From assembly GCA_020746835.1 (NCBI GenBank), contig JAGPNK010000032.1:1-64000 (forward strand): 64,000 nt of DNA. The letters run 5' to 3'. Position numbers and translations under genes: made by a program. This document shows positions 781 through 24,037 of the stretch, piece after piece. Each line of letters starts with the position of its first letter. Positions within the stretch are counted from its first letter, which is position 1. This stretch comes from Stachybotrys elegans. Its lineage: Eukaryota > Ascomycota > Sordariomycetes > Hypocreales > Stachybotryaceae. The notes beneath the pieces were generated by a model. It had not been told where the DNA came from, searched no databases, and saw only the letters and a program-made list of their open reading frames with translations.

Positions 781-1734
781 ATTAATAAAATTATTAAATT
801 TATATTAGTTTATATAAACTTTAAATTTATATTTAATATTTACTAAAAATATAAAAAAGACTTTTAATATTTAAAATAATATTAAAATTAAATAACTTAA
901 AAAACCTATATAAATAGCTTTAAATAGAAATTTTCTTTATATAAAAATAAATAAAGAAATATTATAATAAAAAGTAATTAAAAAAATTAATTTTTTAAAA
1001 GAAAAATATACTTTTTTTTATTATAAAAATATTAATATAAAATAATTAAATAAAAACCTTAATTATTATTATATTAAAATATTTTAATTAAAAAAAATAT
1101 TTTTAATAATAATTATAAATTTAATTTATTAAATAAAATATAACTATATTTAATTTTTTATATTTTACTATTAAAATTTATAAAAAGAACTATTTATATT
1201 AAAAAATATATATTAATAAAGCTATTTTAAAATAAAAATTAAAAATTAAAAAGATTTTTAATTATAAAAAAAATATAAAAATAAAAAACTAATAAAAATA
1301 CTTTATTAAGTAGAAAAACTATAATAAATTAAAAAATATATAAAAACTATTTAAATATTTATTTTATATTTAAAAGGAGATTTAATAGTATTATTAATAA
1401 AAAAAAATATATTTTATAAATTAAAACTAAGTTTAAAAAAAAACTAATTAATATTATTAAAAGTATTTATTATTTATAATTTCTTTATTAAATAAAACTT
1501 ATAAATATTTAAAAATAAAAAAATACTATTATTTTTATTTAATTAAGTAATATTATAATAAATTATAGTTTTCTAATAAAAGTATATATTTATATAGATT
1601 TTTTAAATATAAAATAATTATATAGTAATTATAATTATATAAATTTAAAAAATAAAAAGTTTATTTAATAAATATAGTAAGTTATTATTAATAGAGTTTT
1701 TTTTTTAAAATAAATAAGCTTTATAATAAAAAAA

Positions 1735-2970
1735 AAAGTATATAGTATAAAGTATAAATAGTAAAGAGTAAATAAATAGTAAAGATAGTATTTAATACTT
1801 TAGTAATTAATATAGTTATAAATAATAAAGAGAAATAATAATAAGGCTATTATTAAACTATTTATATAAAGTAACTAACTAGTTAAGTAACTAAGCTATA
1901 AATAGCTATAATATATATAAATATATAATATAATAGAATATTAAGATATATAGAGGGTTAAAGTAGGGTTAGACTAAATAGAAGGCTTTAATAGTGTCTA
2001 GTTAAAAAGCTTTAATTAACTTATTAAATAAAGTTACTAATACTATAGAAGCCTTATTATAACCTATACCTAAAAGAAAAGTACTATTAGTAATACTAAT
2101 AGAAAGCTTTAAGCTAGAAAAGTCTATAATATTACTTTAAACTACTAATAGAGCTATTAAAAAGCTTAATTTATACCTATAGCTATATAAAGCCCTTAAG
2201 CCCCTAGCTTAAAAAAGATAAATTTATTATTTATATCTTACTACTTATTTATACCTTATAGCTAATTAAAACAATTAAAATATAAGTAAATAATATCTAT
2301 ATCTATAATAATATAGCTATATTAAAGGGGTTAAATCCCCTTATTAAAGCTATAAATATAATAGTAATAGCTCTAACTATTATTTATAATAATACTAGTA
2401 AAAAAGTTATTTATAAAATAAATTACTTTAAGAGATTTAATAATAGTATTACTAATAGTTTAGAAATAGAATAACTTTTACTACTTTTTTTCTTTAGTTA
2501 ATTTAAAATTAAAATATAAAAAGTAAAAGAATAAAAAAACTAAAAGAAACTAGCTTTTTAAAAATAAGCCCTTTAGTTAGTAAACTAAAGGTATAAAAAA
2601 GTAATAGCTATAAGGCTAGCTAACTTAAAAAGCCTTAGCTTAGTTTTTTAATATAGATTTTTAATTAGTTTTTACTTTAGTTATTAAATTAATTACTTTT
2701 ACTATTTTAAAATTATATATTTAATATCCCTATAATATAATATTATAAAAAGCTATTAAATAATATATTAAAAGCTATAATTATATATAGAAGCTATATA
2801 CTAAGCTATAAAGAAGTATATAATGTAAAGGAGCTATAAGGAAAGCTAGGTATATATAATATAGAGAACTTATTTAGTTAGTAATAGTATATAGAAATAA
2901 GTCTAGAGTAAGCTAGAAAAGATAGTAAAAAAAACTAGTATAAGCCTTTTAAACTTTATATTTAAAAGGG
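1735..2970 (-). repeat. Family-1 element, copy B (RIP-degraded)
   Basis: Read on the minus strand this follows the whole of the GC-retaining copy at 4090-5517. The plus-strand start at 1735-1800 matches the reverse complement of the element's 3' end, and 2930-2965 matches the reverse complement of its 5' end (AGTATAAGCCTTTTAAAC type). No coding potential remains. Confidence 0.7.
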
Positions 2971-3869
2971 AAATAAACTTTATAAAAATTTAAAAATTAT
3001 ATTAAAGCTATAGTTAAATAAAAAAAACTATAAAAAAGTAAAAAAGATATATAAACTAAAGTTATTAAAATACTATTATAATAAACCTTTTATAATATAT
3101 ATTTATAATAATACTTAATATTTTTAATTATAATATAATAATAACTATAAAAAAACATTAAGTATATAGTATATTTATTTTATAATTAGTAAGGAAAATA
3201 AATTCTATAAGTATTTAAATTTTATAATATTTATAAGTACTATATAATATAGTTAGCTATTTAAAAATAAAAATAAAAAAGAAAAGAATACTAATAAAAT
3301 AAAAATAAATAGACTTTTTATATAGTTTTAAAATAAAAGACTATTATAAAGGGGTATTATATTATAATATAATAATTATATAAATTATATAATAAATTAT
3401 ATAATAAATTATATAATTTATAAAGAATTAAAAACTTACTAAATTAAATAGTTTAAAATAAGTTTTAATTTTAAACTAATAGTTTTATTAAATAGTTAGT
3501 TTATATAGTATATAAATAAAAGAATTCTATAAAGAATATCTATTTAAAAAGTCTATTAGCTATTAATATAATTTAATTACTTTAACTATTATATATATTA
3601 AGTATTTAAATATTATTAAATATAATATATATTTAATAATATATATATTCTAACTATTTTATTAATAACTAACTTTAATATAATTAAACTTAATTATAAT
3701 TAAAAACCTAACTATTATATTATATTATAATTAGTTTATTTATAATTATATTTATACCTATAGTTTCTATAGTTATAAAAGGGATATTATATAATTAAAG
3801 CCTTAATATAATTTTTAAAATATAAATAATTAAATATAATAAGAAAAAGAGTATATAGTATAAAGTATA

Positions 3870-6525
3870 TATCCCCCTAAGTATAAAGTAAAACTACTTA
3901 AAGAAAAAGAAATATTAGTAAGGTTCTTTCTTTAATTATACTAAGGTTAAATAAATTATATAAATGCCTAATTATCTATTATATAATATACTTAATTATC
4001 TATATTAGACTATATTAAGGCTTTAACTATATAGAAAATATCCCTTTTATAGCTATAGAGACTATAATTATAAATATAGTTATAAATAACCCTTCTAAGC
4101 ATGAGGTTTAAAAGGCTTATACTGTTTTTTTCACTGTCTTTTCCGGCTTACCCTGGACCCGTTCCCACATACTGTTGCTGACTAAGTAGGTTCCCTGCAT
4201 TACATGACTAGCGTCTAGCTTTCCCCACGGCTCCTTTGCATTATATATTAGCCTTCTTATACAGCCGTAGTTTCTTTACAGCCGTATAGCTTCCGCATAT
4301 GACTACGGCTTCTAATGCATTGCACAGTACCTTCCGCCACGACTATGGCTTCTAACACATTGCTTCTCTCTATAATAGTATCGGCATTCAATTAAATAAT
4401 ATAAAGCTGTAGCAAGTGCTAACAAGCAATGCAGTTATATTACAGGGGCATTAAATATATAATTCAGTGAGAAGGCAGTAAAAGTAATTAATTTAATAAC
4501 CAAACAAAAAAACCAACTAAAAACCTATATTAAAAAACCAAGCTAAAGCTCTCTTAGAGTAACTCTAACTGTCTCTGGCTTCTAAAGTAAGCTATATATC
4601 TCTATAGCCCTCTATTAATCCCTTATTAGCTTAATTTAGCTACTAAGGGGCTTTTTATTAGTAAGTTAGGCCTTCTTACCCTTTCTACTCTATTGCTTTT
4701 TATATAGCTCTAGGGCTCTAGGGAAAGAGAGATAGTAGAAGTTATTCTATTACTATTAGTAATACTATTATTAGTTAGAAAAGACCCCTTAGGGCAACTT
4801 ACCTTATAGATAACTTTACTAGTATTTATAGTGGCAGCAGCTAAGGCTACTATAGCTGCTAGAGTAGCTTTAGCAGGGGGATTTAACCCCTTTAATACAG
4901 CTGTATTATTATGGGTATGGGTATTGTTTGCTTGCATTTTGAGTAACTATAAGGCATAAGTAGGTAGTGGAATATAGATAATGAATTTATCTCTCTTGAG
5001 CCAGGGGCTTAAGGGCTTTATATAGCTATAGGCTGTAGAACAAGCTTTTCTCTATTGGCAGCCTAGAGCGATGGCTTTTCTAGCTTAAAGCTTTCCATTA
5101 GCATCGTGGCGCTCTCCATCTGGGCATAGGTTACGGTCACAGTCATAATAAGGCTTCTACAGCGCAACCTTATTTAATGAGTCAACCAAAGCTTCCCAGC
5201 CGGGCACCGGCAACCTTATGTGGTTGCAACCCCGCCCCAACCCTCTGTACGTGTATGTGTATGAGGCCAGCTCGACATCCCGTCGCATCACATGCCTGTG
5301 CATGCTCAGTGTGGCTTGTGATAGTGCTCGCAGCCACCTGTGGCTCGGCCACTCAGCCAGTCGGCTACCCTGTATGCAAGGGCAGCCTAATAATGGCCTT
5401 GTTATTGTTTCTCTCTACTATTTATAACTACATTAGTTGCTAGGGCACTAGGCACTACCTCTATTGTTTATTTACTCTCTACTACTTATACTCTATACTA
5501 TATACTCTTTTCCTTATTATAGTTATAAATAAACTAATAGTAATATAATTAATAAGGGTTTTCTATCTATAAGTTAAGGATATATTAAACATTATTTAGA
5601 CCTTATAAATATAGCCTAAAATACTTAAATCCCTTTATTAAGTAGTATAATAATTTATTAAAGTCTATCTCTAAGGGTTATTTCTAGTCTAGCTTTAGTA
5701 TCTAGCTATTTTTTAAGCTAGAGATATTTAGTTATTTTTAAAGAGAATTCTCTTTTTTTACCTTTTATTTTTTAATAATCTAAATTAAAATAATCTAAAA
5801 GCCTTTTAAAAGGCTTAAAGAATATAGTCTATTACTATTAGTAATACTATTCTTTAATAGATTAAAAAAGGTCTCTTAGAATAGATAGACTTATTTATAC
5901 CTAGCTATATATAGCCTTAATAGACTATTTAGTAGGGGAATTTAACTTAGAAATACCCCTAGCGTTCTAATTATTTAGTTAGTTTATTTATTACTAATAG
6001 AGAGTAAATCTAATAGTATATAAATAGAAAGAAAAGAAAGAGAGAGATAATAGAAAGAGTAAAGACCTTTTTATATATATTTCTTAAACTCTATTCTAGG
6101 GCTAGGCCTTATATACTAAATTATATATTTCTAGTCTAATATAGCTATAGTACTATTTATAGCTATAGCTATTATATATTTATATAGTTTAAGGACTTCT
6201 ATTAGAATTATAATAATATTTTAACCTTAGTATATTACTTTTATATTTTTAAGGCTAGCCTTATTAAAATATATACTAATAAATAGTATATATATATATT
6301 AAGTCTACTAACTATAGGTCCCTTTAACTATATATACTTTTACTATTACTATTACTATTATAGCTCTTTTATTATTCTCTAGCTCTAGCTAATAGAAAAT
6401 ATTAGCTATAGTTTAATAATCCCTTTATTATTTAATACTATTCTTTAGTTCTATAGATAGTAAGGTTACTATTATTTATATATACTATTATTCTTTTTTT
6501 ATACTAAATATACCTACTATATTAT
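3870..6525 (+). mobile_element. Family-2 element, interrupted by a family-1 insertion
   Basis: The left part is 3870-4089 (starting near CCCCCTAAGTATAAAG) and the right part is 5518-6525 (ending near CTACTATATTATAG). Together they match the uninterrupted copies at about 48055-49280 (same strand) and 46402-47690 and 8150-9445 (opposite strand). The element is about 1.2-1.3 kb, RIP-degraded and non-coding as it stands; the family is not recognised. The break falls exactly at the 15-bp duplication flanking copy C of family 1. Confidence 0.65.
4090..5517 (+). mobile_element. Family-1 element, copy C (full-length, GC-retaining)
   Basis: About 1,428 bp flanked by an exact 15-bp direct repeat TATAGTTATAAATAA (4075-4089 and 5518-5532). 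It is less mutated than its relatives and keeps normal GC at 4100-4400 and 5100-5460. The 3' end is CTTTTCCTTAT, shared with four short fragments elsewhere that each have their own 13-16 bp duplication. Variable-length duplications and 5'-truncated siblings sharing one 3' end are typical of non-LTR retroposons (LINE or SINE type). No reverse transcriptase frame is visible; the longest frame (minus strand, 75 codons, 4710-4937) is unrecognised. A non-autonomous SINE-like element is the best reading. Confidence 0.7.
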
Positions 6526-7850
6526 AGTATAAAGTATAAATAATAAAAAGTAAATAAATAGTAGAAATAATATTTAATACTTTAGTAATTAATATAGTTA
6601 TAAATAGTAAAAAGAAATAATAATAAAGCTATTATTAAACTATTTATATAAAGTAACTAATTAATTAAGTAGCTAAGTTATAAATAGCTATAAATACTAT
6701 TATAAACTATATTAAACTTATATATAAATATATAATATAATAGAATATTAAAATATATAAAGGGTTAAAATAAAATTAAATAAAAAGCTCTAATAGTACC
6801 TAGCTAAAAAGCTTTAGTTAATTTATTAAATAAAGTTATATTATAAAAGCCTTATTATAATTTATATTTAAATAGAAAGTACTATTAATAATACTAATAG
6901 AAAGCTTTAATAATATTAAAAAAGCTTATAATTATAACTATATAAAGTTATTATTACTTTAAACTATTAATAAAGAAAAGCTTAATATTTATAACTATAT
7001 AAAGTCTTTAAGTCTTTAGTTTAAAAGAAATAAATTTATTATTTATATTTTACTATTTATTTATATTTTATAGTTAAAATATAAGTAAATAATATTTATA
7101 TCTATAATAATATAATTACTTTAATAATTATAATAGTTTTAACTATTATTATTATTAATATTAGTAAAGTTATTTATAAAATAAATTACTTTAAGAGATT
7201 TAATAATAGTATTATTAATAGTTTAAAAATAAAATAACTTTTATTATTCTTTTTTTTTTAAAGTCTTAAAGCTATATAAAAAGTAATAAAATAGAAAGAG
7301 TAAAAAGGCCTAACTTATTAATAATAGGCCTTTTAGTAACTAAATTAAACTAATAAAAAAGAAATAACTATAGAGCTTTAATATAAGGCTTACTTTAAAA
7401 GCTAAAGATAGTTAGAGTTACTTTAAGAGAGTTAGTTTAGTTTTTTAATATAGATTTTTAATTAGTTTTTTTATTTAGTTATTAAATTAATTACTTTTAC
7501 TATTAAATTATATACTTAATGCCTTTATAATATAATATTTAATTAAATATTAATACTATTATAAAGAGTAAAAAGAGCTAGATAAATAATATATAGTAAA
7601 TAAACAATGTATTAAAAGCTATAGTTATATATAAAAGACTATAAAAAAAGCTATAAAGAAGCTATAGCTATATAAAAAGACTAATATATAATGTAAAAAA
7701 ACTATAAAGAAAGCTAGGCATTAGTTATATAATATAAAAAACTTATTTAGTTAGTAATAGTATATAAAAATAAATTTAAAATAAACTAGAAAAAAAATAA
7801 AAAATAAAGAAAAATAATATAAGTCTTTTAAACTTTATATTTAAAAGAAA
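6525..7850 (-). repeat. Family-1 element, copy D (RIP-degraded)
   Basis: The reverse complement follows copy C through its length, ending at about 7830-7850 with the counterpart of the 5' end. It sits directly against the right end of the family-2 copy at about 6525. No duplication could be assigned, and its element 3' terminus seems shortened. Confidence 0.6.
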
Positions 7851-8149
7851 TATATATTCTATTATATTTATTATATTTAGTAAAATAGCCTTTTATAGCT
7901 TTATATTACTTTAGTTATTAATATAATTTAATTACTTTAATTATTTATATATTTAACTATTATTAAATATATATAAAAATTAAAAATAATAAATATATTT
8001 ATTATTTAATAAAGTATTATTAAAAGTTTTAAATTACTTATACTTACTTTATATAAATTTAATTCTATATATAATATATTACCTTTAGTAATATTAATTA
8101 GTTATTTAAATTATTTAATATTTTAAATTATATACTATATTATATAGTT

Positions 8150-9445
8150 TATAATATAGTAAGTATATTTAGTATAAAAAAAAGAATAATAATATATATA
8201 AATAATAGTAACCTTACTATATATAGAATTAAAAAATAATATTAAATAATAAAGGGATTATTAAACTATAATATATAATATTAATATCTTTTATTAACTA
8301 AAGCTAAAGAATAATAAGGGGGCTATAATAGTAATAATAATAGTAACTATATATAAGTATATATAATTAAAGGGACTTATAATTAGTAAACTAGCCTTAA
8401 TATATATATATACTATTTATTAGTGTATATTTTAATAAGACTAGCTAAAGGTAATATACTATAATTCTAATAGAAGTTCTTAAACTATATAGACTTATAA
8501 TAAAGAAATATATAATAGCTATAGCTATAAATAGTACTATAGCTATATTAGGCTAGAAATATATAATTATATAAAGCCTAGCTTTAAAATAGAGTTTAAA
8601 AGATATATATAAAAAGGCCTTTATCTCTCTATTATATATCTCTCTTTTTTTTTCTTTTTATTTATATATTAAAATCTTTATTATTAATAATCTATATATA
8701 GTAGCTTAATAGAGAATATAAACTAAAATACTAAAAATAGTATAATTCTCTTAAAGTAAAAATACTAATAGTTTACTTAAACTAAAAATAGTTAAATAGA
8801 AATAAGTTTATTTATTCTAAGAGACTAAGAAATAGTATTATTAATAGTCTATATTATATAATAGACTAGGGCTTTTAAGCCCTTTAAATAATAGTTTAAT
8901 AGTCTAGATTTAAGTTTCTTTTAAAACTAAAGAGATAAAAAGAAAGTAAATAAAACTAATAAGCCTACTAGGGCTTTCTTTAAATAATAGGCTTATATTT
9001 TAAAGCTAAACTATTAGAATAGTAAAAATGGCTACTTAGTATACTACTTTAATAAAGGGAAATAGAAAGCTTTCTTAATACTAAGTATTTTAAACTGTAT
9101 TTTTAAAAGGCCTAAATAATATTTAATATATTTTATAAATAGAAAACCCTACTTATTAATTATACTACTATTAGTTTATTTATAATTATATTTATAACTG
9201 TGGTTTCTATAGCTATAAAAGAGATATTTTCTATATAATTAAAGCCTTAATATAGTCCTTAAATTATTTAGAAAGTCAGTTAAATAATAGTATACTAAGG
9301 AATATATAATATAAATAATTAAATATATTATATAATGGGTAATTAAGCATTTATATAATCTATTTAACCTTAGTATAAATAAAAAGAAAACCTTATTAAT
9401 ATTCCTTCTCTTTTAAATAGTTTTACTTTATACTTAGAGAGATTA
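8150..9445 (-). repeat. Family-2 element, inverted copy
   Basis: The reverse complement of this tract parallels 48055-49280 and 5518-6525. Shared landmarks are the ATTATTCTTTTTTATACTAAATATAC-type right end and the left end near a CCCCTAAG-like sequence. RIP-degraded; no frame survives. 9446-9960 is further AT-rich DNA in which I see nothing specific. Confidence 0.6.
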
Positions 9446-10044
9446 TATAGTTTATATAAATAAATCTAATTTAAATTTATATTTTTAAGCTTTTATAATA
9501 AATAAATATAAAATTATTAAAACTATTTTAAAAATACTATATAATAGATAAATAATTAAAGTATTATACTTTTATTTTAAAAGATTTTATTTTATTTTAT
9601 TTTATATTCTTTTTTAAGAAATTTAAAAAAGTATATAGTATAAATTTATAAATCTTTAACTTTTTAAAATATAATAAAGAAAAAAATATTTTTAAAAATA
9701 TCTTTATATTTCTTAAGTAAATATTTATATATATAAGAAATTTAAAATTTTTAGTAATTTAAATTATTAACTAATTTAAAATGCTAACTAGTACTATCTA
9801 AAGGGTAGTAAGGCTATAAAACGCGAATTAAATAGGGCGGACATAAGTAGGCTTTTTTGCCTTCTCTCTTAAACTTATTACTATAAGAACTAAAAAGGGC
9901 AAGTATACCTACTGTTTAGCAGAGCATTTATTTTGGTAAATATCCTTCCTCACAATATAACTATCACTTAGTAAGTCTCACCCTGACCGCTCTGCTAATA
10001 TAAACCCATAGCATACCTTGGACTGCCACCCTGGGGTCCAAACG

Positions 10045-11728
10045 TCACATGCCCATGCTACTGAGTACTGAGGCCCACGTCTCCTGGTCCCGTATGACGG
10101 CTTCTCTCTTCGTCTCGTCCCGCAGCTCGAAGCTGACCTTGAAGGGGTTCGGGCTGGGAACGAGCCCGTGGTGATAGCCAGTCTCGAAGCTCGTGTCGAG
10201 GGGCTCCTGGGCCACAATCTTGTAAGCCCACAGCATCTTGGCCAAGGCCAGCAGCGCAGACGTGTGCGCAAACTCTGACCCGGGGCACATCCTGCGCCCG
10301 TAGCCAAAGGCGTAGGTCGCCTGCCTGCCGGGAAAGTTTTCGTCGTCTGATTTGAGGCCCAAGGGGTGGTCGATGTACCTCTCGGGGATGAACTCGTTGG
10401 GTCGGTCGTACGCCGCCGGATCATGGTGCATCGCATATATATTGGTGAGAACAACGGTGCCCTTTGGTATCATGTAGCCCTCAAAGACATCATCCGCTTC
10501 GAGTGTGTGCGGTAGGCCGAGCGGTGCTGCAGGGCGGAAGCGACGGATCTTGCGAGTGGCATGGTGATTAGTAGGGGCCTTACAGGGTCTCGTGATGGGC
10601 GCCGGATTAGCTTACCTCCAGTAGAAAAGCGCGAAGATAAGGTAATGCATCGATATCATCTGTAGTGGGCGGCTTCTCCAAGTCGAGTCGACGCAGCTCC
10701 GCGAAGCACTTGTCCTGTATGTCTGGGTAAGCCGCCATGAACAAGACAGAGCTCATGGCGGAGGAATATGTAGTGTCAACGGCAGCATCCAACAGGGCGC
10801 CGCCCGTCCAGGCCATCTCATCGTCCGACATTCGATAGTCTGGCTTCTTTCCCGGCTCGTTCTCCTCGAGCAGCTTCGCCACTACGCCTTGGTATTTCCC
10901 CGACGCTCCGTCGCCAATGGCGGCGGCGCGGAGCTCCTTGGAAGCTCGTAGGGTCACGGGGTACTCGTCCATCATGTACTTGTGTACTCCTTTCGCAAGT
11001 GTCTTCCAATGTGCAAACCTCTCGGGGACCAGCCGCAGAATGGGAATGACATCGACGGGAGGGGTGGTTCCGGGGTCCAGCATCCTGAGCCAGTCGCCCT
11101 GCGCAGCGTATAAGCGATGCATGAAGGCGACGCCTCGTTTCTCCAGGCTCTGCCCGGTGATAGCGAGAAGCGGCGTGGCGATTGCCCAGTACTTGATGTG
11201 GTCGAGAGACTCCTCCGGGGTCGTCTGGAGCAGCTTCCGGGCGAGGCTCGCAGCGGTAGCTTCTTGCATGGGCACTGTCGCCTTCTCGACAGCCGACCCG
11301 AAGTACCTGACAGACGTCTTGCGCCATTTCCGGAGAAACGGACCCGGCTGCAGGTTCAGGATGTGCTTGTCGCCATGCTCCTTAAAGACGTGCTCAACCG
11401 CAATATAGCCAAACCGCCTACCGGAGTAGATGGCACCGCGCTTACTGAAGAGCTCGTGGACAGGCCGAGGATGGCTGAGAACCACGACGTTGGCCGGGCC
11501 CATCTTGAGGCCCATGATCTCTCCATACGTGCTGGCCCATTTCTGAAACTGTAAGAAGGATAAATTGAGAGGGACTTGGTGCAGGTTGCCGAAGCCGATG
11601 CGAATAGGCGGGCCAGGGGGGTAGAGCTTCGGGCGGAGAGTGGAAAGGAGATATTGCGCGACCTTGCCAATGGCGATGCAGACGCTCGCAACGAGCGCTG
11701 CTCCCATCCAGGTGCTGGAAGTGAACAT
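10045..11728 (-). CDS. Cytochrome P450 monooxygenase (OrdA-like group)
   Basis: Two-exon model: exon 1 11728-10616, exon 2 10548-10045; the 67-bp intron (GTAAGC..CAAG with CTAAT branch point) is phase 0. It encodes about 537 aa. The start at 11728 puts an N-terminal membrane anchor directly before the proline-rich hinge PPGPP; an in-frame upstream ATG at 11869 would add a basic, non-anchor extension and is less likely. Visible P450 signatures are the I-helix AAVDTT, the K-helix ExxR (EIRR) formed across the splice junction, and the haem loop FGYGRRMCPG with Cys about 459. The family is an ER-bound, NADPH-P450-reductase-dependent oxygenase; similarity to the O-methylsterigmatocystin oxidoreductase group is by eye only and the substrate is unknown. 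The frame is intact although the gene is an island in RIP-degraded DNA, with normal sequence for only about 160 bp upstream. Confidence 0.88.
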
Positions 11729-12590
11729 GATGTTTTGTGCATAGAAACCGCGTTGGGTGAGAGAGCATAGAGGCAAGTGAGCGAGGAGGGCAGTCCCCTT
11801 AAATGCTTTGAAGCATTGCTGCCGCTGGCGGTGCTTGGGGAGCCTGAAGAGTCGTTTAGTATCTGGCAATTTCGAAGGCTGGTAAGATACATATAATGAA
11901 ATATATAGTAGGTTTTAAAAAGTAATCTATTTTAAGTATATCTCTATAGTTAAGATTTTATTAAACTATTTATTTACTAAAAATAATTATATTATAAAGT
12001 ATAGTAAAAAAATATTTTTATTTTTTTAAACTTATTTAAAATACTTTAGTATTTTTATTTCTTTTAAAGCTTTAAAATAGAATTTTCTAGGATTTTTTAA
12101 AAGTAAGTATTTAAAATAAAATAAGTTTAGTAATAGATTTATATATAAATACTATATATATTTATTAAGGAAATTATTAATATAAAGAAATAAAATTAAA
12201 GTAAGGATTTTAAGATTTAAAGGTAAAATATTAAAAAAAACTAAATAAGCTATATTTTTCTTAGAATTATTTACTATTTATATATAATAAGGAAAAGAGT
12301 ATATAATATAAAGTATAAATAGTAAAGAGTAAATAAATAGTAAAAATAATACTTAATACCCTAATAATAAATGCAGTTATAAATAGTAAAGAAGAATAAC
12401 TATTTATATATTAATACTTAAAAAAAAATTTAAAAATCTCTTAGCTAGCTATAGCTATTTCCTTTTCTTATTAATAATAAGTTATTACTAATAATATTTT
12501 AAAAGATAAATTACTTTTTTTACCCTACTATAAGCTTACTATATTATTAAGTTTATAGATATCTCGAACTATTTTCTAATAGTAAGAAGT
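11729..12590. repeat. AT-rich spacer with one element fragment
   Basis: The first 160 bp (11729-11890) keep normal composition and would be the P450 promoter. From about 11890 the DNA becomes AT-only and RIP-like until about 12590. Apart from the short family-1 fragment annotated separately, nothing is recognisable. Confidence 0.6.
12286..12398 (-). mobile_element. 5'-truncated family-1 fragment with TSD
   Basis: A 113-bp piece carrying only the element 3' end, seen as ATAAGGAAAAGAG on the plus strand. It is flanked by the 13-bp direct repeat ACTATTTATATAT (12273-12285 and 12399-12411). The polarity and shared end match copy C. Confidence 0.7.
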
Positions 12591-14000: not shown

Positions 14001-14750
14001 TTAGGCAACCAAATTCGTCTGCGTCCTCGGCTTTGTTGCCCGAAACAACAACATCACCCCCACCAAGGTTATCTCCACCTCCTCAAATTCTCTCTTCAGC
14101 GCCTCCTCCAGATCCTCCCTTGTATCGTCCTTATTGTTAAACACGCCCCACGAATCATTGTAGAACTTGAGATAAAACTTGATCATCCAACTCGTGGTCG
14201 CTTTGGGACCCAAGACAGTACACCCGTAGAGCACGCCATCCTTGGCCAAGAGCTGGCTGAACGTGGCAAACGTCTTGGCAAACTTTTCCTTGCCGCCGGG
14301 CATGCAGTGGAAGAGGTTGAACATGGAGATTGAGGTAAACTTCTTGTCTGCCAAGGCCGCAGGTGGCGGAAGCGTAGCGTCTGCTTCGAAACACTGCGTT
14401 GTCGTCGCCGTGGTGACAGCCAACACCCTCGACTCCGCCACTTTCAGCGAATTAGGATTGATATCCACCAGCGTCAATTGCTGCTTGCCATGTTTCCGGA
14501 ACGGCCTGCCTAGTGCTTCCGACGGGAACCAACCCGTCGCGACACCGCAGTCGAGGTGGTTCCGCGAGAAATTCTCCGTGAAGAAAGGGAGGAGGACGCT
14601 GGTCGGGCAGCCCCAGAAGCGCATGTTGAAGCTGAGGACATAGTAGTCGTAGAATAGGTTCAGAAAAGAGCTGGAGTAGACGGTGGCGTAGGTCTGGCCA
14701 TCGCCGAGCTTGCCAGTTTCGTCCTGGGAGACCATTGTGAGGATTGGCAA
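14001..14750 (-). CDS. Class I SAM-dependent methyltransferase
   Basis: A single exon of 249 codons. Motif I of the Rossmann-fold methyltransferases is visible as HLDCGVATGWF at about residues 65-75, followed by motif II (LTLVDINPNSL, about 92-102) with the acidic residue that binds the SAM ribose, and a post-motif LYGCTVLG strand. The length fits small free-standing methyltransferases found near fungal secondary-metabolite genes. There is no signal peptide or membrane segment, so it is probably cytosolic. An in-frame second ATG five codons in is an alternative start. The neighbouring P450 (10 kb) and the downstream polyketide relics suggest a role in specialised metabolism, but the substrate cannot be told from the sequence. 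Confidence 0.8.
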   Translation of the reverse strand: MPILTMVSQDETGKLGDGQTYATVYSSSFLNLFYDYYVLSFNMRFWGCPTSVLLPFFTENFSRNHLDCGVATGWFPSEALGRPFRKHGKQQLTLVDINPNSLKVAESRVLAVTTATTTQCFEADATLPPPAALADKKFTSISMFNLFHCMPGGKEKFAKTFATFSQLLAKDGVLYGCTVLGPKATTSWMIKFYLKFYNDSWGVFNNKDDTREDLEEALKREFEEVEITLVGVMLLFRATKPRTQTNLVA

Positions 14751-14896: not shown

Positions 14897-17090
14897 CTTG
14901 CTTCTTCCTCTGCAATTGACAGACTATGCAAGTACAATAAAGCCGCACCTCAGGTTCCTCGGGATCTTTATCTCCAATACTTCCTTCCCCATTAATCTCT
15001 CACACCGCCTTACCTCGTCTATATGAATCATAACAGGGATACGAGATTATGTACGACCACGTCATGTCATGATAAGCCATGCCGACCGAAACCCGCCAAA
15101 GCCGTCGGGACCGAATTAGGTGGGGCGAGCACGAGCGGGTAATGCCGAACACAGGAGGAACGAGCGCATAAGCCTGCAGCAAAGCATCCCCTGTCTGGGC
15201 CCCAGACGGACCGGTCCGGGCCTCAACCGTTGTCTACTGTACATCCACCTCCTTGCCAACGCGTCCAGCTAGCTACACGGGGTATCTTGGCGCCGAAGCT
15301 TAGCGGATGTTGCCTTCGCCCATCACTCCACAACGGTCGTGTCCACGTCCACGCGCTCGTTGAGGTTGCTACCGTCCCTGATGTAGATCCAGCCACCGGA
15401 AGCGGTGCCCTCCCCGACGACGCACCAGTCATACCTCTTTGGCCCGGAGTCCCGGAGTCGAGATAACGGTCGCGGATAGCGAGTGGTGTGAACGTATAAA
15501 GCCCGTGCGATCCAACATGGAGATCTGCATCGCCCCATTGCGCTTCGGTGCTGACCTGAAGGGTAAAAACCTGTAGGAAGCCCGCGTGATCCAACGTCGA
15601 TGTCTCATCGCCCCCTTGCGCTTCGGTGCTGGCCTAAAGGGTAAAAGCCTGCAGGAAGCCCATGTGATCCAACGTCGATGTCTGCATCGCCCCCTTGCGC
15701 TTCGGTGTTGACCTAAAGGGTAAAATCCTGTAGGAAGCCCATGATAGCAGGAGGGTGGGAACGCGATATATGTGAACTACTAGAGTTAACAACCTAATGC
15801 AGGAGCCTACATAGGGGGCAACTCAGTGATGTGTAGCTAAACCTTGGTAGCTGCTGTATACGATAGATAATGCGTAAATTTGATGCTTCGCAATTGCGAC
15901 TTGGGAGAGTTTCTGTATAGAAACCTTACAGAAAACCTTGACAGTAATAACTCTTTCGCTGGCCTGGCAACGCCCAAGGCCAGATAGCTATAAAATACGC
16001 GAGAGATTCTGATCTCCTTGACTTGCCAAGCCAAGCAAAGCTATGTGAATACGCGCGCTGTCTCGGCCCTGCGGGCACAGGCACTGACCGTGGAGGGCTA
16101 GCCTCCAAAGGAAGAGTCTTGGAGTATCTCTGCACTGCCATGTAGCCTTGATACCTGCCACGGCTAAAAATCCCAAAGAAGAAGCTATTAGACTAGGTCG
16201 GCCGAGATATTCACCCGCGATAGTCTGTGCAGTCACTGTCATTCCATGAATAGTAAGATATGCGAAATCTCGAACGAGGTGCTGATTTCGTGCCCATGTA
16301 ATCATGTTGTCAGAGCTTGATATGGCCACTCCGGTGTTGGTGCGTATCGAGGCCTGCCGAGCGAGGTGGCGGAGGTTGGCCCGTAAGCGCAATACGCAAC
16401 CCGCAACACGCGCGGTCCATTCACCAGCACTGAACCTTGCACTGTCAAGGAAAATCAATGAGAAAAGCGGCACAAGTGTGCCGCGAAGAGAAGAGGTGCT
16501 CGGGCGAGCGAATTGCCGATCTGTCACCGTCCGAACAAGGCGTCCGAACCCAAGCAAAGCTAAGAGACCAAGTAAGATATTACGTTATGCGTGCGTCCAG
16601 TGAGGAAAATGAACAACGAGGGAGATAATAACAGTACCAAGTAAGGTATTGGATGCCCTCCACACACCCAAGAAGACCTGTTCATCCATGCATCCATGCA
16701 TCCACCCATCATCCTCCTCCTCTTCCTCCTCCGGGCACGCAAGCAGCACATCCTGCATAATCTTGCCAGCGTGCGCTACTGCCGCCGCCTGCTTATCAGG
16801 AGCCTTGTCCATGTCCGTCTTTGACCTGTTATTCGGCCGCAGCGGAGGAATCCGAGCGGAGGAAGCCGGACTCTGGCCACCCTCGGAGCTTACGCACTCC
16901 TACCAGTGCCACCACCTACTCTTGTAAGATTGCAGGGATCTAGCAGTGCGTGGTGGCTCACAAACTAGATGTATTTCAAATCATTACCAGATCACGGAGG
17001 CTCGGTAACGTAATCCCACGGTGCGTTGGTTAACCTGATGTCTGGCCCTAACGATTCTAGCCATACCCTGAAGACTGTAACTATGCCTTT
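14897..17090. other. Intergenic region without a supported gene
   Basis: Normal GC. Apart from the 79-bp tandem repeat at 15504-15743 and a CATC/CTC-rich microsatellite at about 16682-16735, I see no gene. A 189-codon minus-strand frame (15988-16557) exists but has no recognisable motif. Confidence 0.5.
15504..15743. repeat. Minisatellite, three units of 78-79 bp
   Basis: Units begin at about 15509, 15588 and 15666 (GATCCAAC anchor). Each carries TTGCGCTTCGGTG, CTAAAGGGTAAAA and GTAGGAAGCCC. The first unit is the most diverged. Confidence 0.9.
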
Positions 17091-17295
17091 AAAATAGTAA
17101 GAGAGTGGGAATATTATAGTTAGCAGCTAAAAGTTTAGTAATATATAAATTATAAGTATACTTAAGGCTAATTTTTTAAATTAGATATAAAATTAAAGAA
17201 AGAAATAAAAAGCTAAGGATTTATTTTATTTTATTTATTTAATTTAGTTTATTTATAAAGATATTATATATTACTTTTTATTATAAATTATTTAT

Positions 17296-17406
17296 ATTTC
17301 TCTTTACTATTTATAATTATATTAGTTACTAAGGCATTAAATATTACCTTTATTATTTATTTACTTTCTATTATTTATACTTTATACTATATACTCTTTT
17401 TCTTAT
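17296..17406 (+). mobile_element. 5'-truncated family-1 fragment with TSD
   Basis: A 111-bp copy ending CTTTTTCTTAT. It is flanked by TATAAATTATTTAT at 17282-17295 and 17407-17420 (18 bp identical if the preceding TTAT is counted). Confidence 0.75.
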
Positions 17407-17775
17407 TATAAATTATTTATTAATATTATAATTTAATAAAGATAAATTTATAATTAAATAAAGTTACTAAAATATACTATATTTAAATAAATTAAAACTT
17501 TTATATATTTTTTATATTATAGTTTTTTAATTATTTTACTTTTTTAATTACTTTTTAACTTTATTATATTTTAATTATTATAAATATTATAATTTACTAT
17601 TATAAATTCTTTTATTTAGTATTTTTATTATTATTTTATAATAATATAATATTAATACTTTTATAATACTATTATTTAATATTAATATACTTTTAATTAT
17701 ATTTAAATAACTATTATTTTTAAATATAAAATAAAAGCTATTAAAATAAAATAGAAAATAAAAAGTTTATATATA

Positions 17776-17842
17776 ATAAAAAAAGAGTATATAATATAAA
17801 GTATAAATAATAGAAAGTAAATAAATAGTAAAGATAATATTT
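17776..17842 (-). mobile_element. 5'-truncated family-1 fragment with TSD
   Basis: A 67-bp copy starting ATAAAAAAAGAG on the plus strand (GG to AA relative to the other copies, as RIP would do). It is flanked by the 16-bp repeat AAAAAGTTTATATATA at 17760-17775 and 17843-17858. Confidence 0.75.
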
Positions 17843-18028
17843 AAAAAGTTTATATATATATATTTAAACTATATTAAAATTAAATAAGTTATATAAATAC
17901 TTAAAAATTTAAAAGTTTAACTTTAATATAAATATATTTAATTTTATTAAAAAATTATTTATTTAAATAATAACTTTATATTAAAATTCCTTAATTTAAA
18001 AAGAAAAGAAAGTAATTTATATAGTATA

Positions 18029-18121
18029 ATAAGGAAAAGAGTATATAATATAGAGTATAAATAGTAAAGAGTAAATAAATAGTAAAAATAGTACTTAATG
18101 CCCTAGTAATTAATATAGTTA
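18029..18121 (-). mobile_element. 5'-truncated family-1 fragment with TSD
   Basis: A 93-bp copy starting ATAAGGAAAAGAG. It is flanked by the exact 16-bp repeat TAATTTATATAGTATA at 18013-18028 and 18122-18137. Confidence 0.8.
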
Positions 18122-18380
18122 TAATTTATATAGTATAAATTACCTTTTTAACTTCTTTAATTAATTCTTATTTTAATATAAATAAAATAAAATATATAAA
18201 AATAAAGTTTTAAAATAAATTTAAAAACTATATAAATATATAAATAGGTCTTTTATATTTATTTAATGGTATTTTAAAATAAATTTCTAAAGAATCGTAT
18301 TAAGTATACTTACTATATAGTTATTCATAGACTTTTATCTACTGACTGTATATATATAAATATAAAGACCTTTTTAAACG

Positions 18381-18652
18381 GATTACCTCTCTGAAACCAC
18401 TACCGATAAGGTAGGAAGCCCATGCAATTATGCAAATACTTAATAGCGCGAGCATGGCCCTACTGCCGCTCGTTTCGAACAGCTGCCGAGCGGTTACCGA
18501 GCATTGCTTATTGACAGCATTCTAACTTAGAAGCAACTGTATGAATTCATCTTCATACAGGCAAAGGCCGGGACAATCTCAAGAACATTTGAAATTAACA
18601 GCCGTCCCTCTCCCGCCTCCTGCCACCGCAAAAAACCTAGACTGTCTCTAGG
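18381..18652 (+). promoter_or_regulatory. Putative promoter of the bacterial-type ORF
   Basis: 272 bp of ordinary GC between the RIP block and the start codon. A pyrimidine-rich stretch lies at 18603-18628, as found before transcription starts in filamentous fungi. The start context has A at -3. There is no Shine-Dalgarno-like purine run at the usual distance. An inverted repeat CCGCTCG/CGAGCGG (18466-18472 and 18487-18493) could be a regulator site. Promoter function is inferred. Confidence 0.35.
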
Positions 18653-21600
18653 ATGATCACCGCACAAAGCGCAGAGACCCAATCTCTCTGGCACGGCGTT
18701 GCTTACGGGAAGTTCAACAGCGCCGTCGCCGGTGCTGTTTCCAACGTGGCTATCAGCTCAGTCAAAAAGACCAAGACGCAAACCTTCATCGACTTTCCCG
18801 GCAACGACCAGACTTTCACGCCTGAGCCCGTTGGCTTTTTTCCGGGCTTAGGCAGCCGCTCTGCCTACCGCACGCTCGAATGCGACCTCTCGCTGAGCGA
18901 CGTGCCTGATATCCGCGATGCCTATACACAAGGCGCCGCCGCCCTGGGCCTCGAGGCGAAGCAGATGGTCCTGACGCCCGCCAACCTGCCAGAAGATCGT
19001 ATCGAGCGTCAGGCATTTCTGGGCGCAGCCCTACTGGTGCATGGCATAGTGCTCCAGCGCCACCTCCACAGCGAGGCCGCGCGCGCAGGCACACAGATCC
19101 GCTTTGCCGCATTCACGGGCGAGAGCTTCGGCATCATTACCGCAGCCGTTGCTGCTGGCGCGCTGTCCATCGCCGACGGCACGAAACTCGCCTATGCACT
19201 GGCGCCTTTTATTCTCGTCGCTGCCGAGGGCGCGCAGGGCCTCTCGCCCCTGCAGGCACGCATTGCGTCGGCTCTCGCGCAAAGCGGCGTGATGCAGCCG
19301 CTTGTGGCTGAGCCAGCCCATGTCGTCGGCCTTTCAGGCAGGCCGGACGCGCTCCAGAAGGCGCTCGCAACCCTCAAAGACACCTACAGCGCGCACGACG
19401 TGGAATTGCACAAGGTATACGCCGAACATCAGGTAAACCTCTATGTGCGTATGGGCATCCGGGAAAGCTTCGGCCTGTTCATGGCCAATTTCCCCGATCT
19501 CTCCTTGCAGGAACTGAAAGAACCGACAACCTTCATGGCGCATGCCGTCCGCATGGCACCCGTCCGCGAGGCATTCGCCCGCATGATGGACGAGGAGGGC
19601 ATCAAGTTTCATGACGCCCACACACCGCTGATTTGCAACCACAAGGCCGCCGTTGTTCAGGGAGCCGCCGATATCCGCGAAGCCGTGCTCGCCGTCATCG
19701 ATCGTGCTATGCAATCCCGCTGGACCGCCAAAGGCTGCGAGCATGTCGGAGCTAATCTCGTGCTCGAACTCGGCCAGGGCGATAAATCACTTCGCCTCCT
19801 CAACGATAACGGTCTGACCCTGCCTGCAATGGGCTATGCGGGCACACTTCATTCAACAGAAGCCTTAGTCGAGGCGGCACGATTGCTGCAGGCATTCGGA
19901 GAGACTGCCCGCTCCAACATGCAATCGACAGACCTCACACCGGACGCGCTGGCACTTTTGCGCCAGGTGTTTCAGGTGCCTGCGCGGTATCCTGAAATTG
20001 CAAAGTTCCTGCGTCGCGAGTTCGCCAAGACGATCGCCGCAAGCCAGATCGACCGTCGCCACCCCCTTGCCCCCATGTCGCGACGCTTTATCGAGGTCTA
20101 TCAGCACAGCATTGCCGCAGCAGGCGACCTCGACCTTGATGCTGGGGAGTTGGCACTGCAGGTTCAGGCCAAGAAGACGGTCGTGGGCGACAGCCACACG
20201 CTCGGTCGCGTGAATACCGAGATCAAGGTGCTGCGTGCCGACGGCACCACTGTCCACCGCATTTCCAACGCCCGATGGAGCTCCGAGGCGCTGGTTTTCT
20301 ACTGCAGCAGGCTTGAGCATCGCCCGGCCGTGGAACTGATCCGCGCAGGTCGGCGCATGTCCGAACACACGCCTGAAATCGCGACACTCTATCGCGCCTC
20401 GTCAGCCTTTCTGCCCTTCGACCTGACGGGCACCTTGCAGATGCCCTCAGGCATGCTGCAGCCCCGCGCCATCGCCGCTCTGCAGATTTTGCATCAACTC
20501 TCCATGCTGACATTGCTGCGCCGGGAGCGGCCCGCAATCTTCACGTCGCACGATTATTACGCGGCCGGCGACCTCTTGGGGTGGTGCGTCGCTCTGGCCG
20601 CCACCAGCGCCTTGAGCGCACATGATGCGGTTGCACTCTATGCGGCCTATTTGAAGATCCATTGTGAGAAAATGGACGTCGCGGACTCTGTCGATACGAT
20701 CCTCGGTCGCCTCCGCGAGTCCACGGCCCCAATTGTCGCGGCCAGTGGCGTCCCCCTCATCACCATCAAGGATATCGCGCGCGAGACACGCACCCTGTTC
20801 AGCCATGGCGTTTTCGACGCACGCCGCCACATCCTGCGCCTGAACGGGGACGTGCAGATCGTGTGCCTGGCATCCAGCCCCGCGCCTGAGACATTCGACA
20901 CGGCGCCCTTCGGCAGTGAGGTCACGCTTATCGCAACCCCTGCGGACATCATAAGGCGCGGGCGTAATACGGCGCTGGAAGCGCTGGAACATTGCTGCAT
21001 GTCCTTGCTGACGGGCGATAACCAGCGCGTCCTGCAGTTTGCGCAGGGGCGCAAGATCTTGAGCAGCACCGTCTTTTCCTACATAAAGCTGGGCGAACAG
21101 GTGCTCGGCTTCGGCAAGGGCGGCAGTGAGTCCATGACGATATTCGTGACCCGGCAGACCATGATGCCTCTTGATACGACGAGCAAGCCCATCATCGTCC
21201 GCAAAATCTTGAGCGAGTCCCTGATCGCAGCCGGCTGGAACCCGGATGGCGAGGGTGTCATGCTCCCGCCCTTCCGCAAGGCCAAGCGTCAGGCGGAATT
21301 CCTGAAAGCCCTCCCGGACCCGGCACGCCCGTATTTCCCCGAGGTCTTCGAAGTTCTGGAGCGCGAAATTCCCGTCCCCCCGCATCAGCGGCAGGGCATG
21401 CAGCGCGACAGCTTCAAGGAAACCATCTACGAAATGAGTTTCGTGCCGGGCGAGGAAGTCAGCCGTTATGTGGAGCGATGCAGCCCGCCGCCTGCAATCG
21501 TCGCGCGTATCTATGAACAGATCGCGCTCGCCCTGGCGCGCGATGTCCATAGCCTATACCGCGCCCCGGCACCGGGCCAGACACTGGAGACGTCGTATTT

Positions 21601-24037
21601 CCACAAGATCGAAGCACGGCTGGCACTCTGCAGGCGCACCGCCCCGCTGACGTTCAGCCCCAATTTGCTCGATACGGACCATATCGTCATCAACGGCGTG
21701 CAGTATCGCAATGTCGGCACTTTGCTCAAAGCTTTTCGGGAGCATCCCGCCTATTGCGAGATCCTGGAGCCACGCGTCCATGCGCTCGTCATGGGGGACA
21801 CCAACACGGAAAACATCAAGATCAACAACCTTGGCCCCCTGCAGCACGCACAAACACTCATCGAAAGCGGTGCCGCGCAATCCGAGATTGATGCAGCACT
21901 CGATGCCATGACGGCGAGTTCGATGGACCTGCGCTTCCTCGACCCGCGCGCCATCGGCTTTGCAAGCGAGGGTGCCGAGACGCGTGACGACCCCATGTAT
22001 GACAATAAGCCGTGGCACAACTCGCTCGGCCATTACGACGAAATGCACCATGAGCGTTTCGAACTCGCCGTTGATGCCGGACCGGGCCAGACACCCGATA
22101 TCCACATCACCTACGAGCCGAACAACCCATATGCCCGCGCCTATGGCGTTGAGGACTTGACGGAACGCGGCATTGATATCGGAAGCCGGCCCGGCGGCGT
22201 GGGCATGGAGCATTATTTCGCGCCGGTAATGCGCAAATTATACGACATAGACAACCCCAACTCGGCCCGTATAGCCGAAGACCCGCACTGGCTGGTACGG
22301 TTCGTCTTTATCATGGGCACACATTTTATGGCCATGCCGCCGTTTCATTTCCAGACGGAATTCGGCGGCGCCTTGATCGATTCGCTGCTGGTCCAGCGAC
22401 GCCCGGTCGCGATTTTTTGCGAAGGCATCCGCTGGATGAACTGGGCCCTGCAAATGCTCGAAGGCACGCGACATTCGTTTCTGGGCATCCAAGTTCCGGC
22501 AGCATCGGTCCCGCATCAGCCCCAAGCATCTCAAAGACAAACGGCCATGATTTCGCCCAATCCTGCCTTTTCCCGTATCGGCATGGCCGCTATGGCGCCG
22601 GAATCGCGCGTCATCTGCACGCCCTGGAGCCGTATGGTGCGCGGCCTGGCCCTCGGCCAGTACCCGGTCGGCTATGATGATGCCATTGCCGGCATCATCA
22701 CCCAGGCACGCGATATCCTGACGCAACAGGTCACCAAGCCCACGGGCTATCTGCGTTTTGCGCTCCAGCTTGCTGAACTCGGCATCGCGCTGAACCGGCC
22801 GGGCGCGCACGTCACACATGAAGAATTGCAGACCCGCGCAACCGGGCTGATGGATGCACTCGGCGCTGAAACAAACCCCTATTACGCGGCCGTCGGCGGG
22901 GGTATCCTGTTTGACGCATTCGCGAAATTCCGGCTCGACATATCCCTGCTCTGCAACAGCACGCGCGATTTCGCAGCTGAGATGCTCGACGTCGTCGACC
23001 GCATCCAGCCAGACCAGATCAAGGACGAAAACGCCGGCAACCACGGCCAATACGAAAAGCTCTTCGCCTACACCTCCATCTTCCTCGGGCTCGGGCAGGC
23101 AGGCCTGACCGACAGGCTGACCAGCGGCCCACGTAATTACGTGCGCGAGGCCCTGCACCTCATCCAGACGGTCCCCTCCCCGTTCTTCAAGGGCCGCGGG
23201 TGTTCGATGCTGTTTTCCGTTCTCTCCGCCATCGGGCTGGACGGCATGATTTTCGACGATGACGGGCACGACTTCATGAAGGAGGTGCTGGAATACGTCG
23301 ACCGTGATGACAGCATCGACTTCCCCTTGCGTTTCCCGCAGCCCATCACGCGCGCCTACGTGAAGATCTACCCGCGTATCACGATGCTCAACGCAATTGC
23401 TGTCTCGGGGCGACATGAATACGCCAGCATGGGGCATGACCGGGTCGCAGAACTCAAGCCGCTCTGGGCTGAGCTGGAGCCGGCGGAGAAGATGCACCAG
23501 AGCCTGTATTATCTCATCGCCCTGCACAATCTCGGTCGCACCGAACAGGAAATCGGCAGTGCCCATGTGTTGATGGATGAGCTGCTCGGCTATCTGGACG
23601 TTGTGGATCCGGGCGCCAATTTCTTCCTCAACGGCCTCAGCCACGCCTACGTCGTCGAGTCTGCCATGCTGACGGGGCGTCTGGGCGATGTACCGCCGCA
23701 GGAGATTGATCGCATCGCCGGTTGCCTCGTGCGGATGGATGCAACGCCGCTTGACCGAGCAAGCCGCGCCTATCCCTTCAGCTACAACCTCAACGCACTC
23801 GGCGAAATCGGTGAGGCTGGCGCGTTAATGTCCCCCAATCCGGCTTACGGCGGTATTTCTGCCTTCTCATGGCTGGTCGCGCAATTTTCGCCGGATGGCC
23901 AGACCGAGGGCAGCCGCCTGTTGATGCTGGGCAATGCGCTGATGGGTCTGGGCTTACGTCTTCGCCCCAGAGAACAGTCATCGACCCCGATGTTTGATGA
24001 TATCGCCAGGCGCCGCGGGTGGAAGATGGAGGCCTGA
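18653..24037 (+). CDS. Giant intronless bacterial-type protein: acyltransferase / inactive acyltransferase-like / kinase-like fusion
   Basis: 1794 aa in one exon, with strongly G/C-biased third positions unlike its neighbours. By eye: residues about 60-400 form a malonyl-CoA:ACP-acyltransferase-like domain, with FPGLGSR (63-69), nucleophile elbow GESFG (Ser158), the His297 region AHAVRMAPVREAF and the terminal LELGQG (371-376). Residues about 545-700 repeat the same layout but have AAGDLLG where the serine should be, so this looks like an inactive acyltransferase fold. Residues about 815-1230 resemble aminoglycoside/choline-type phosphotransferases: GFGKGGSE loop (819-826), Lys851, catalytic MGDTNTEN (1047-1054) and LDPR (1096-1099) followed by a DPMYD..HSLGHYD-like segment. 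Residues 1310-1794 are probably helical and unrecognised. There is no signal peptide or membrane helix. The substrate is unknown; acyl transfer plus phosphorylation of one metabolite is inference. Horizontal transfer from a bacterium is likely; a chimeric assembly must be excluded. Confidence 0.85.
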   Translation: MITAQSAETQSLWHGVAYGKFNSAVAGAVSNVAISSVKKTKTQTFIDFPGNDQTFTPEPVGFFPGLGSRSAYRTLECDLSLSDVPDIRDAYTQGAAALGLEAKQMVLTPANLPEDRIERQAFLGAALLVHGIVLQRHLHSEAARAGTQIRFAAFTGESFGIITAAVAAGALSIADGTKLAYALAPFILVAAEGAQGLSPLQARIASALAQSGVMQPLVAEPAHVVGLSGRPDALQKALATLKDTYSAHDVELHKVYAEHQVNLYVRMGIRESFGLFMANFPDLSLQELKEPTTFMAHAVRMAPVREAFARMMDEEGIKFHDAHTPLICNHKAAVVQGAADIREAVLAVIDRAMQSRWTAKGCEHVGANLVLELGQGDKSLRLLNDNGLTLPAMGYAGTLHSTEALVEAARLLQAFGETARSNMQSTDLTPDALALLRQVFQVPARYPEIAKFLRREFAKTIAASQIDRRHPLAPMSRRFIEVYQHSIAAAGDLDLDAGELALQVQAKKTVVGDSHTLGRVNTEIKVLRADGTTVHRISNARWSSEALVFYCSRLEHRPAVELIRAGRRMSEHTPEIATLYRASSAFLPFDLTGTLQMPSGMLQPRAIAALQILHQLSMLTLLRRERPAIFTSHDYYAAGDLLGWCVALAATSALSAHDAVALYAAYLKIHCEKMDVADSVDTILGRLRESTAPIVAASGVPLITIKDIARETRTLFSHGVFDARRHILRLNGDVQIVCLASSPAPETFDTAPFGSEVTLIATPADIIRRGRNTALEALEHCCMSLLTGDNQRVLQFAQGRKILSSTVFSYIKLGEQVLGFGKGGSESMTIFVTRQTMMPLDTTSKPIIVRKILSESLIAAGWNPDGEGVMLPPFRKAKRQAEFLKALPDPARPYFPEVFEVLEREIPVPPHQRQGMQRDSFKETIYEMSFVPGEEVSRYVERCSPPPAIVARIYEQIALALARDVHSLYRAPAPGQTLETSYFHKIEARLALCRRTAPLTFSPNLLDTDHIVINGVQYRNVGTLLKAFREHPAYCEILEPRVHALVMGDTNTENIKINNLGPLQHAQTLIESGAAQSEIDAALDAMTASSMDLRFLDPRAIGFASEGAETRDDPMYDNKPWHNSLGHYDEMHHERFELAVDAGPGQTPDIHITYEPNNPYARAYGVEDLTERGIDIGSRPGGVGMEHYFAPVMRKLYDIDNPNSARIAEDPHWLVRFVFIMGTHFMAMPPFHFQTEFGGALIDSLLVQRRPVAIFCEGIRWMNWALQMLEGTRHSFLGIQVPAASVPHQPQASQRQTAMISPNPAFSRIGMAAMAPESRVICTPWSRMVRGLALGQYPVGYDDAIAGIITQARDILTQQVTKPTGYLRFALQLAELGIALNRPGAHVTHEELQTRATGLMDALGAETNPYYAAVGGGILFDAFAKFRLDISLLCNSTRDFAAEMLDVVDRIQPDQIKDENAGNHGQYEKLFAYTSIFLGLGQAGLTDRLTSGPRNYVREALHLIQTVPSPFFKGRGCSMLFSVLSAIGLDGMIFDDDGHDFMKEVLEYVDRDDSIDFPLRFPQPITRAYVKIYPRITMLNAIAVSGRHEYASMGHDRVAELKPLWAELEPAEKMHQSLYYLIALHNLGRTEQEIGSAHVLMDELLGYLDVVDPGANFFLNGLSHAYVVESAMLTGRLGDVPPQEIDRIAGCLVRMDATPLDRASRAYPFSYNLNALGEIGEAGALMSPNPAYGGISAFSWLVAQFSPDGQTEGSRLLMLGNALMGLGLRLRPREQSSTPMFDDIARRRGWKMEA

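Follow-up and report, generated by a model that had tools for sequence, protein, structure and literature searches.

Our analysis concerns a window, the whole stretch of 64,000 nucleotides that begins at the first base of contig C26 (JAGPNK010000032.1) of the fungus Stachybotrys elegans, and within it a single intronless open reading frame (ORF) that we interpret as the fusion of a bacterial operon (18653..24037, + strand; ATG start, 1794 amino acids plus stop). The preliminary description of this DNA had already recognized the uninterrupted frame. We found it intact and in single copy in the 43.4-Mb, 61-contig genome, where the sole further match of its product is a native DUF6604 gene (residues 6-54). 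Two proteins tie this genome to S. elegans or a nearly identical strain: a HET protein encoded in the window agrees with an S. elegans record along the record's 422 residues, except for a stretch of 21 residues and an N-terminal portion that its gene model lacks, and the DUF6604 protein on contig C60 has 100% identity to an S. elegans protein. The frame is not a product of chance, because no stop-free run in frame 0 exceeded 376 codons in 2000 base shuffles of its sequence and because the protein aligns with bacterial proteins across nearly its full length.

The 5' end of the frame holds a captured internal fragment of the native DUF6604 gene (18671..18808, on the + strand like all features of the frame; residues 7-52), with 34 of 46 amino acids and 101 of 138 nucleotides identical to the gene on contig C60. 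It is followed by a FabD-like acyltransferase region, AT1 (18821..19891; residues ~57-413), which has the acyltransferase fold and keeps both the GxSxG serine (S158) and the catalytic histidine (H297) of FabD and MCAT. Position 183, which corresponds to the Arg117 that binds the malonyl carboxylate in E. coli FabD, is Phe in 41 and Leu in 4 of 45 sequences, and never Arg. The NCBIfam fabD model scored 31.3 bits against the protein, short of its cut-off of 260.9. A degenerate second acyltransferase-like region lies further on (20354..20812; residues ~568-720), where GESFG is tentatively aligned with AGDLLG. Its support is modest (hhalign probability of 61-64%), and from its sequence it is probably a dead pseudo-acyltransferase.

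The kinase module comes next (20834..22522; residues ~728-1290), its start being set by the gene boundary in four actinobacterial loci (L011, L032, L034, and L036). It has a choline kinase/aminoglycoside phosphotransferase (APH)-like fold with all catalytic motifs, and K851, E923, D1049, N1054, and D1097 are invariant in 43 rows. Yet it differs from the choline kinase/APH fold, which also includes methylthioribose and hexosamine kinases, by an identity of only 9-16% to the kinases compared and by conserved blocks of its own (GDTNTEN, LDPRAIG, NKPWHNS). No Pfam kinase family matched the whole 1794-residue protein or any of the six proteins of region B (the kinase region) that were scanned. The frame ends with an all-helical C domain, encoded by a separate gene in most bacteria (22553..24034; residues ~1301-1794), which according to its structural model is possibly an alpha/alpha toroid. 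Searches of this domain in Pfam, NCBIfam, and PDB sequences gave nothing convincing, and a Foldseek search using the B-C model matched no structure at an E value of 0.001 or below. No Pfam, NCBIfam, or PADLOC family matched the protein at the cut-off, where one is set.

Fungal-type genes lie on either side of the frame and link it physically to fungal DNA; in a Pfam scan of nine other ORFs of the window, the matches were to two P450s, a methyltransferase, fungal rhodopsin (two ORFs), subtilase, a fungal transcription factor domain, zinc dehydrogenase, and HET. AT-rich DNA resembling the product of repeat-induced point mutation (RIP) precedes the frame (17000..18379; GC 13%, TpA/ApT 1.30) and stops close to 18380, leaving the distance of about 270 bp previously reported. 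The intervening 273 bp (18380..18652, +) are free of this signature and have a CT-rich leader ahead of the ATG; by eye, they are presumed to be a fungal promoter and 5' untranslated region. They showed only chance-level matches to four acetic acid bacterial loci, and the DNA flanking the ORF as a whole gave only chance-level matches of 13-17 nucleotides to the same loci. Beyond the frame, sequence of 48% GC resumes directly after the stop.

The preliminary description had also seen a bacterial signature in base composition. The GC richness holds (60.9% versus 49.7% at 24.7-45 kb of the window, normal stretches of the contig having about 50%), but the third-position bias is weaker than claimed: GC at third codon positions is 0.74 (0.75 in the C part alone) versus 0.50 to 0.78 in five mechanically called native-gene ORFs in the window. 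Relative synonymous codon usage correlates with that of the native ORFs taken together at 0.83 and with that of two acetic acid bacterial operons at 0.87 each. We therefore rejected codon bias as proof of bacterial origin. Such an origin, and the intact retention of the gene, are instead borne out by homologues and trees.

From bacterial operon to fungal gene

The protein search scored the 7,994 candidates with the most words in common and gave 121 matches. Among the best 120 of these, those in the fungal clade were Trichoderma barbatum (98%, full length), Xylariaceae sp. FL0255 (95%), an ENA sequence (P0003, 90%), and Trichoderma sp. TUCIM 5745 (P0004, 82%, 1269 amino acids); below these four every organism named was bacterial, and more fungi may carry the gene. 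The T. barbatum copy lies on an 11.7-kb contig and has the same start region as the window copy, and one other fungal copy sits on a 754-kb contig. P0004 lacks the AT1 part, by truncation or by an error of the gene model. In bacteria, we identified 54 loci by genome scan and three more among 72,556 plasmid records (57 in total); none of 50,697 phage records matched. The system is found in Actinomycetota, Pseudomonadota, and Omnitrophota, and in a partial form in Cyanobacteria. In the family of Gluconacetobacter sacchari it was carried by three of 299 drawn genomes, including that of this species, with a fourth match that was weak and local; Nguyenibacter, found in the genome scan, had no match in this draw.

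In a tree of 47 rows (42 loci and the five fungal-clade proteins; the 15 other loci each lacked a part), the fungal-clade copies, including the ENA record, formed a clade with 100% support, with four acetic acid bacteria as its sister group (also 100%). They are thus a shallow clade within an otherwise bacterial tree, and the gene is almost certainly of bacterial origin. Three named fungi are among the listed matches of the protein search, and the topology contradicts fungal relationships, contrary to what a vertical spread would give. In a more careful tree of 18 of these rows, the window copy grouped with T. barbatum (100/100), Xylariaceae joined them (100/99), and Trichoderma sp. remained outside. 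Approximately unbiased (AU) tests, on groups named after the first tree, rejected a single Trichoderma clade (p 2.4e-52) and a clade of the window copy with both Trichoderma (p 1.5e-4). The window protein is 97.5% identical to that of T. barbatum and 94.8% to that of Xylariaceae; the two Trichoderma proteins are 83.6% identical over 1267 columns. Differing constraint does not explain these values, because the same protein is compared throughout. Transfer between fungi, involving Stachybotrys, T. barbatum, and the Xylariaceae fungus, is therefore highly likely as judged from these sequences.

The change in gene structure is seen at the C domain. Of the 49 bacterial loci scored, those in which B and C each reach 70% coverage, 47 encode C in an ORF of its own (upstream of B in L042), and B and C are fused in all four other fungal-clade copies. 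Because C is so rarely fused in bacteria, we are very confident that a bacterial operon became a single gene in fungi. The fusion junction (22499..22552; residues ~1283-1300) replaces the bacterial stop, intergenic DNA, and start. The two exceptions (L023:7511-16900 and L031:7169-16843) are from Omnitrophota, where A, B, and C form one giant protein of 3.1-3.2 thousand residues. Their 830-945 additional N-terminal residues had only weak Pfam matches, below cut-off. In L040, also from Omnitrophota but outside the scoring, the genes are fused as far as the contig extends. The acyltransferases and the kinase share one ORF in 36 of the 57 loci (two short or rearranged ORFs were left out). From these comparisons, the events specific to fungi are the loss of the B-C gene boundary and the change at the 5' end.

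We also considered a fusion of three genes as in acetic acid bacteria. There the kinase is encoded by two genes that overlap by 11 nucleotides between the G-loop and the VRK lysine, in the N-lobe (L007:12354-12364, L004:12435-12445, L003:12441-12451, L006:1823-1833). The corresponding fungal segment (21107..21205, bounded by the G-loop GFGKGGSESMT and the VRK lysine) has one base fewer at the break and reads through. A single ORF spans this segment in 50 of the 57 loci; the other seven are the four acetic acid bacteria and L042, L052, and L057, which did not match the pattern. Because outgroups read through, the break is best regarded as derived in acetic acid bacteria, and we dropped the three-gene fusion. 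The split itself may reflect either a working two-piece kinase or recoding.

The DUF6604 fragment suggests, from sequence similarity, where the 5' end was acquired. Among the best 120 of 526 DUF6604 proteins, the S. elegans one was the top match both for the window copy (73.6 bits; next 66.6) and for the T. barbatum copy (77.8 bits; next 69.7). The piece is absent from the Xylariaceae and ENA copies, and the Trichoderma sp. model stops short of the region. Since S. elegans is the best match for both copies and the piece is missing from Xylariaceae and ENA, a lineage resembling Stachybotrys may have captured it before the gene passed to T. barbatum. The comparison covers only 46 residues, and the 120 proteins were gathered with the S. 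elegans query and include none named T. barbatum. The preliminary description did not mention the fusion of the operon, the N-terminal capture, or the passage between fungi.

Several loci have unusual arrangements. In L052 (Thiotrichaceae; 2-3127), B comes first and precedes a protein with a weakly C-like sequence before a weakly acyltransferase-like one. In L024, another ORF resembling C adjoins the operon on the other strand (15709-17427, -). L057 is a 12-kb plasmid, pRW1 of Acinetobacter larvae, in which the acyltransferase part is spread over several ORFs and the other annotated genes encode replication, toxin-antitoxin, or hypothetical proteins. L045, L047, L049, and L050 are cyanobacterial or proteobacterial B-C pairs lacking the acyltransferase. 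Neighbors of the first three were identified by Pfam as molybdopterin oxidoreductase, zinc dehydrogenase, Polyketide_cyc2, and Amidohydro_2, and those of L050 by clustering only.

Around the fungal gene, the P450s and the methyltransferase (10607-11869, 14001-14750, and 44260-45342) may be native genes or cluster partners. Very AT-rich RIP-like blocks occupy positions 1-9500 and 45500-50500 (GC 13-18%, (CpA+TpG)/(ApC+GpT) 0.02-0.10); at 3.5-6 kb the GC content rises to 30% in an island. No convincing target-site repeat surrounds the ORF: a 16-nucleotide pair at 18382/24495 with 88% identity is within chance for short repeats. An origin in a Starship giant transposon was not shown, the 41 genome-wide matches listed for its captain domain DUF3435 including none on C26, a contig that starts with the window.

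Predicted chemistry

AT1 resembles the FabD malonyl-CoA:ACP transacylases in its fold, nucleophile, and catalytic histidine, but it lacks their Arg117 in all 45 sequences and is fused to a degenerate acyltransferase, a kinase, and a helical domain. We therefore rejected the database name "ACP S-malonyltransferase" as a claim on the substrate. In the PksD-type acyl hydrolases of trans-acyltransferase polyketide synthases (PKS), the carboxylate-binding Arg is also replaced, usually by Gln, according to the excerpted text of PMC11775670. These enzymes share with AT1 an acyltransferase fold without Arg, but the excerpt presents them as stand-alone proteins acting with PKS carrier domains, whereas AT1 has Phe or Leu and belongs to a multi-domain protein. 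The annotation shows no PKS or acyl carrier protein (ACP) gene near the system in the three plasmids looked at, two from Streptomyces and the Acinetobacter one, although the gene table is incomplete.

These motifs would fit a combination of acyltransferase and small-molecule kinase chemistry, which we consider fairly likely. In 28 of the 55 bacterial loci, a gene for a major facilitator superfamily (MFS) exporter is found no more than 2.5 kb away, and we give even odds to the product being an exported bioactive metabolite. Our best guess is that the protein makes, by itself, a small metabolite carrying an acyl group, a phosphate, or both.

Scenario and rival explanations

Overall, we propose that a fungus took up a biosynthetic operon from acetic acid bacteria or a close relative and made it into one gene. 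The first donor gene probably encoded AT1, the second acyltransferase, and the kinase in one protein, and the second gene the helical C protein. Comparison with bacteria shows that the stop and intergenic DNA between them were lost, which would allow a cap-dependent ribosome to translate the whole from a single start. The 46-codon DUF6604 piece was probably captured later at the 5' end, and the finished gene, according to the tree, would then have moved among fungi. AT1 would accept an acyl group from a thioester on Ser158, a neutral one and not malonyl, and hand it on to a small acceptor; a hydroxyl of this acceptor or of the product would be phosphorylated by the choline-kinase-like domain, and the pseudo-acyltransferase and C domain may form a scaffold or binding chamber. 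In bacteria, the neighboring MFS pump probably exports the product. We put the probability of this scenario as a whole, from operon capture and fusion to transfer and metabolite synthesis, at about two in three. A bolder version is possible, but we hold it only tentatively: an undescribed line of acyltransferase, pseudo-acyltransferase, kinase, and helical chamber that alone makes a signaling or antimicrobial small molecule without carrier proteins, and that passed from bacteria to fungi, was fused, gained a native N-terminus, and spread among fungi.

Several observations weigh against the scenario. Just four copies besides that of the window were found, one being the short P0004 model, and the groups in the AU tests were chosen post hoc. 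The joint clade of acetic acid bacteria and fungi has a long stem and is weakly placed among bacteria (84 in the 47-row tree, 36/81 in the 18-row tree). The sister acetic acid bacteria already have a split kinase gene, and so do not represent the donor state, and the four actinobacterial loci named above keep acyltransferases and kinase as separate ORFs, so the donor state of this pair is inferred only. On the functional side, no MFS gene was found near 27 of the 55 loci; the nine further ORFs of the window that were scanned include no carrier protein, ketosynthase, or thioesterase; cyanobacteria have B and C without acyltransferase, beside oxidoreductase genes; and the C domain model is weak (predicted local distance difference test scores mostly 45-70 across 1339-1598).

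An assembly chimera, or bacterial contamination joined to a fungal contig, would account for the sharp change of composition close to AT-rich DNA and might seem in line with the short contig of the T. barbatum copy. But the B-C fusion recurs in three other named fungal records, including the one on the 754-kb contig, and C is separate in nearly all bacterial loci. Since fungal copies elsewhere share the gene, and native DUF6604 coding DNA lies inside the frame, such a join is extremely unlikely. The few fungal copies and thin sampling leave more room for vertical inheritance with massive loss, or for differently sorted ancient duplicates, since deep paralogy and loss could mimic transfer between fungi. 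Yet the window protein is closer to those of another order and another family (94.8-97.5%) than the two Trichoderma are to each other, and the AU tests also contradict this history, which we find improbable.

Other explanations concern function. AT1 might strip unwanted short acyl groups, as PksD does, with the kinase detoxifying or recycling a metabolite. The replaced Arg fits such a housekeeping role, as do the zinc dehydrogenase, molybdopterin oxidoreductase, and amidohydrolase genes near cyanobacterial B-C pairs; the fused kinase, the frequent MFS neighbor, and the three plasmids without annotated PKS or ACP genes do not, and we regard it as unlikely, if still a serious candidate. Alternatively, the kinase might phosphorylate and AT1 acylate an antibiotic that the MFS protein exports. 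The MFS neighbor and a kinase fold common to aminoglycoside phosphotransferases would suit this role in self-resistance or drug inactivation. Choline kinase and methylthioribose kinase, however, score equally against the module, and the Acinetobacter plasmid has no other annotated metabolic gene, which makes this role quite doubtful.

Yeasts have reportedly acquired a bacterial siderophore operon, in work attributed to Kominek in 2019. That case is likewise a transfer of an operon from bacteria to fungi, the difference here being that two genes became one coding frame. Among the papers listed by literature searches on this transfer, its hosts, or operon fusion, no title or opening of an abstract described it, and the 2025 survey by Kogay et al. 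of operon transfer into eukaryotes (cited in PMC12803844) may contain the case. The mechanism by which eukaryotes put a transferred bacterial operon to use is described as elusive in an excerpt of PMC11952965. The system studied here offers a natural case of before and after, bacteria having separate genes and fungi a single frame with a recognizable native front piece. It further draws attention to an enzyme system of bacteria that lies outside the family libraries searched and is simple enough for testing as a single protein.
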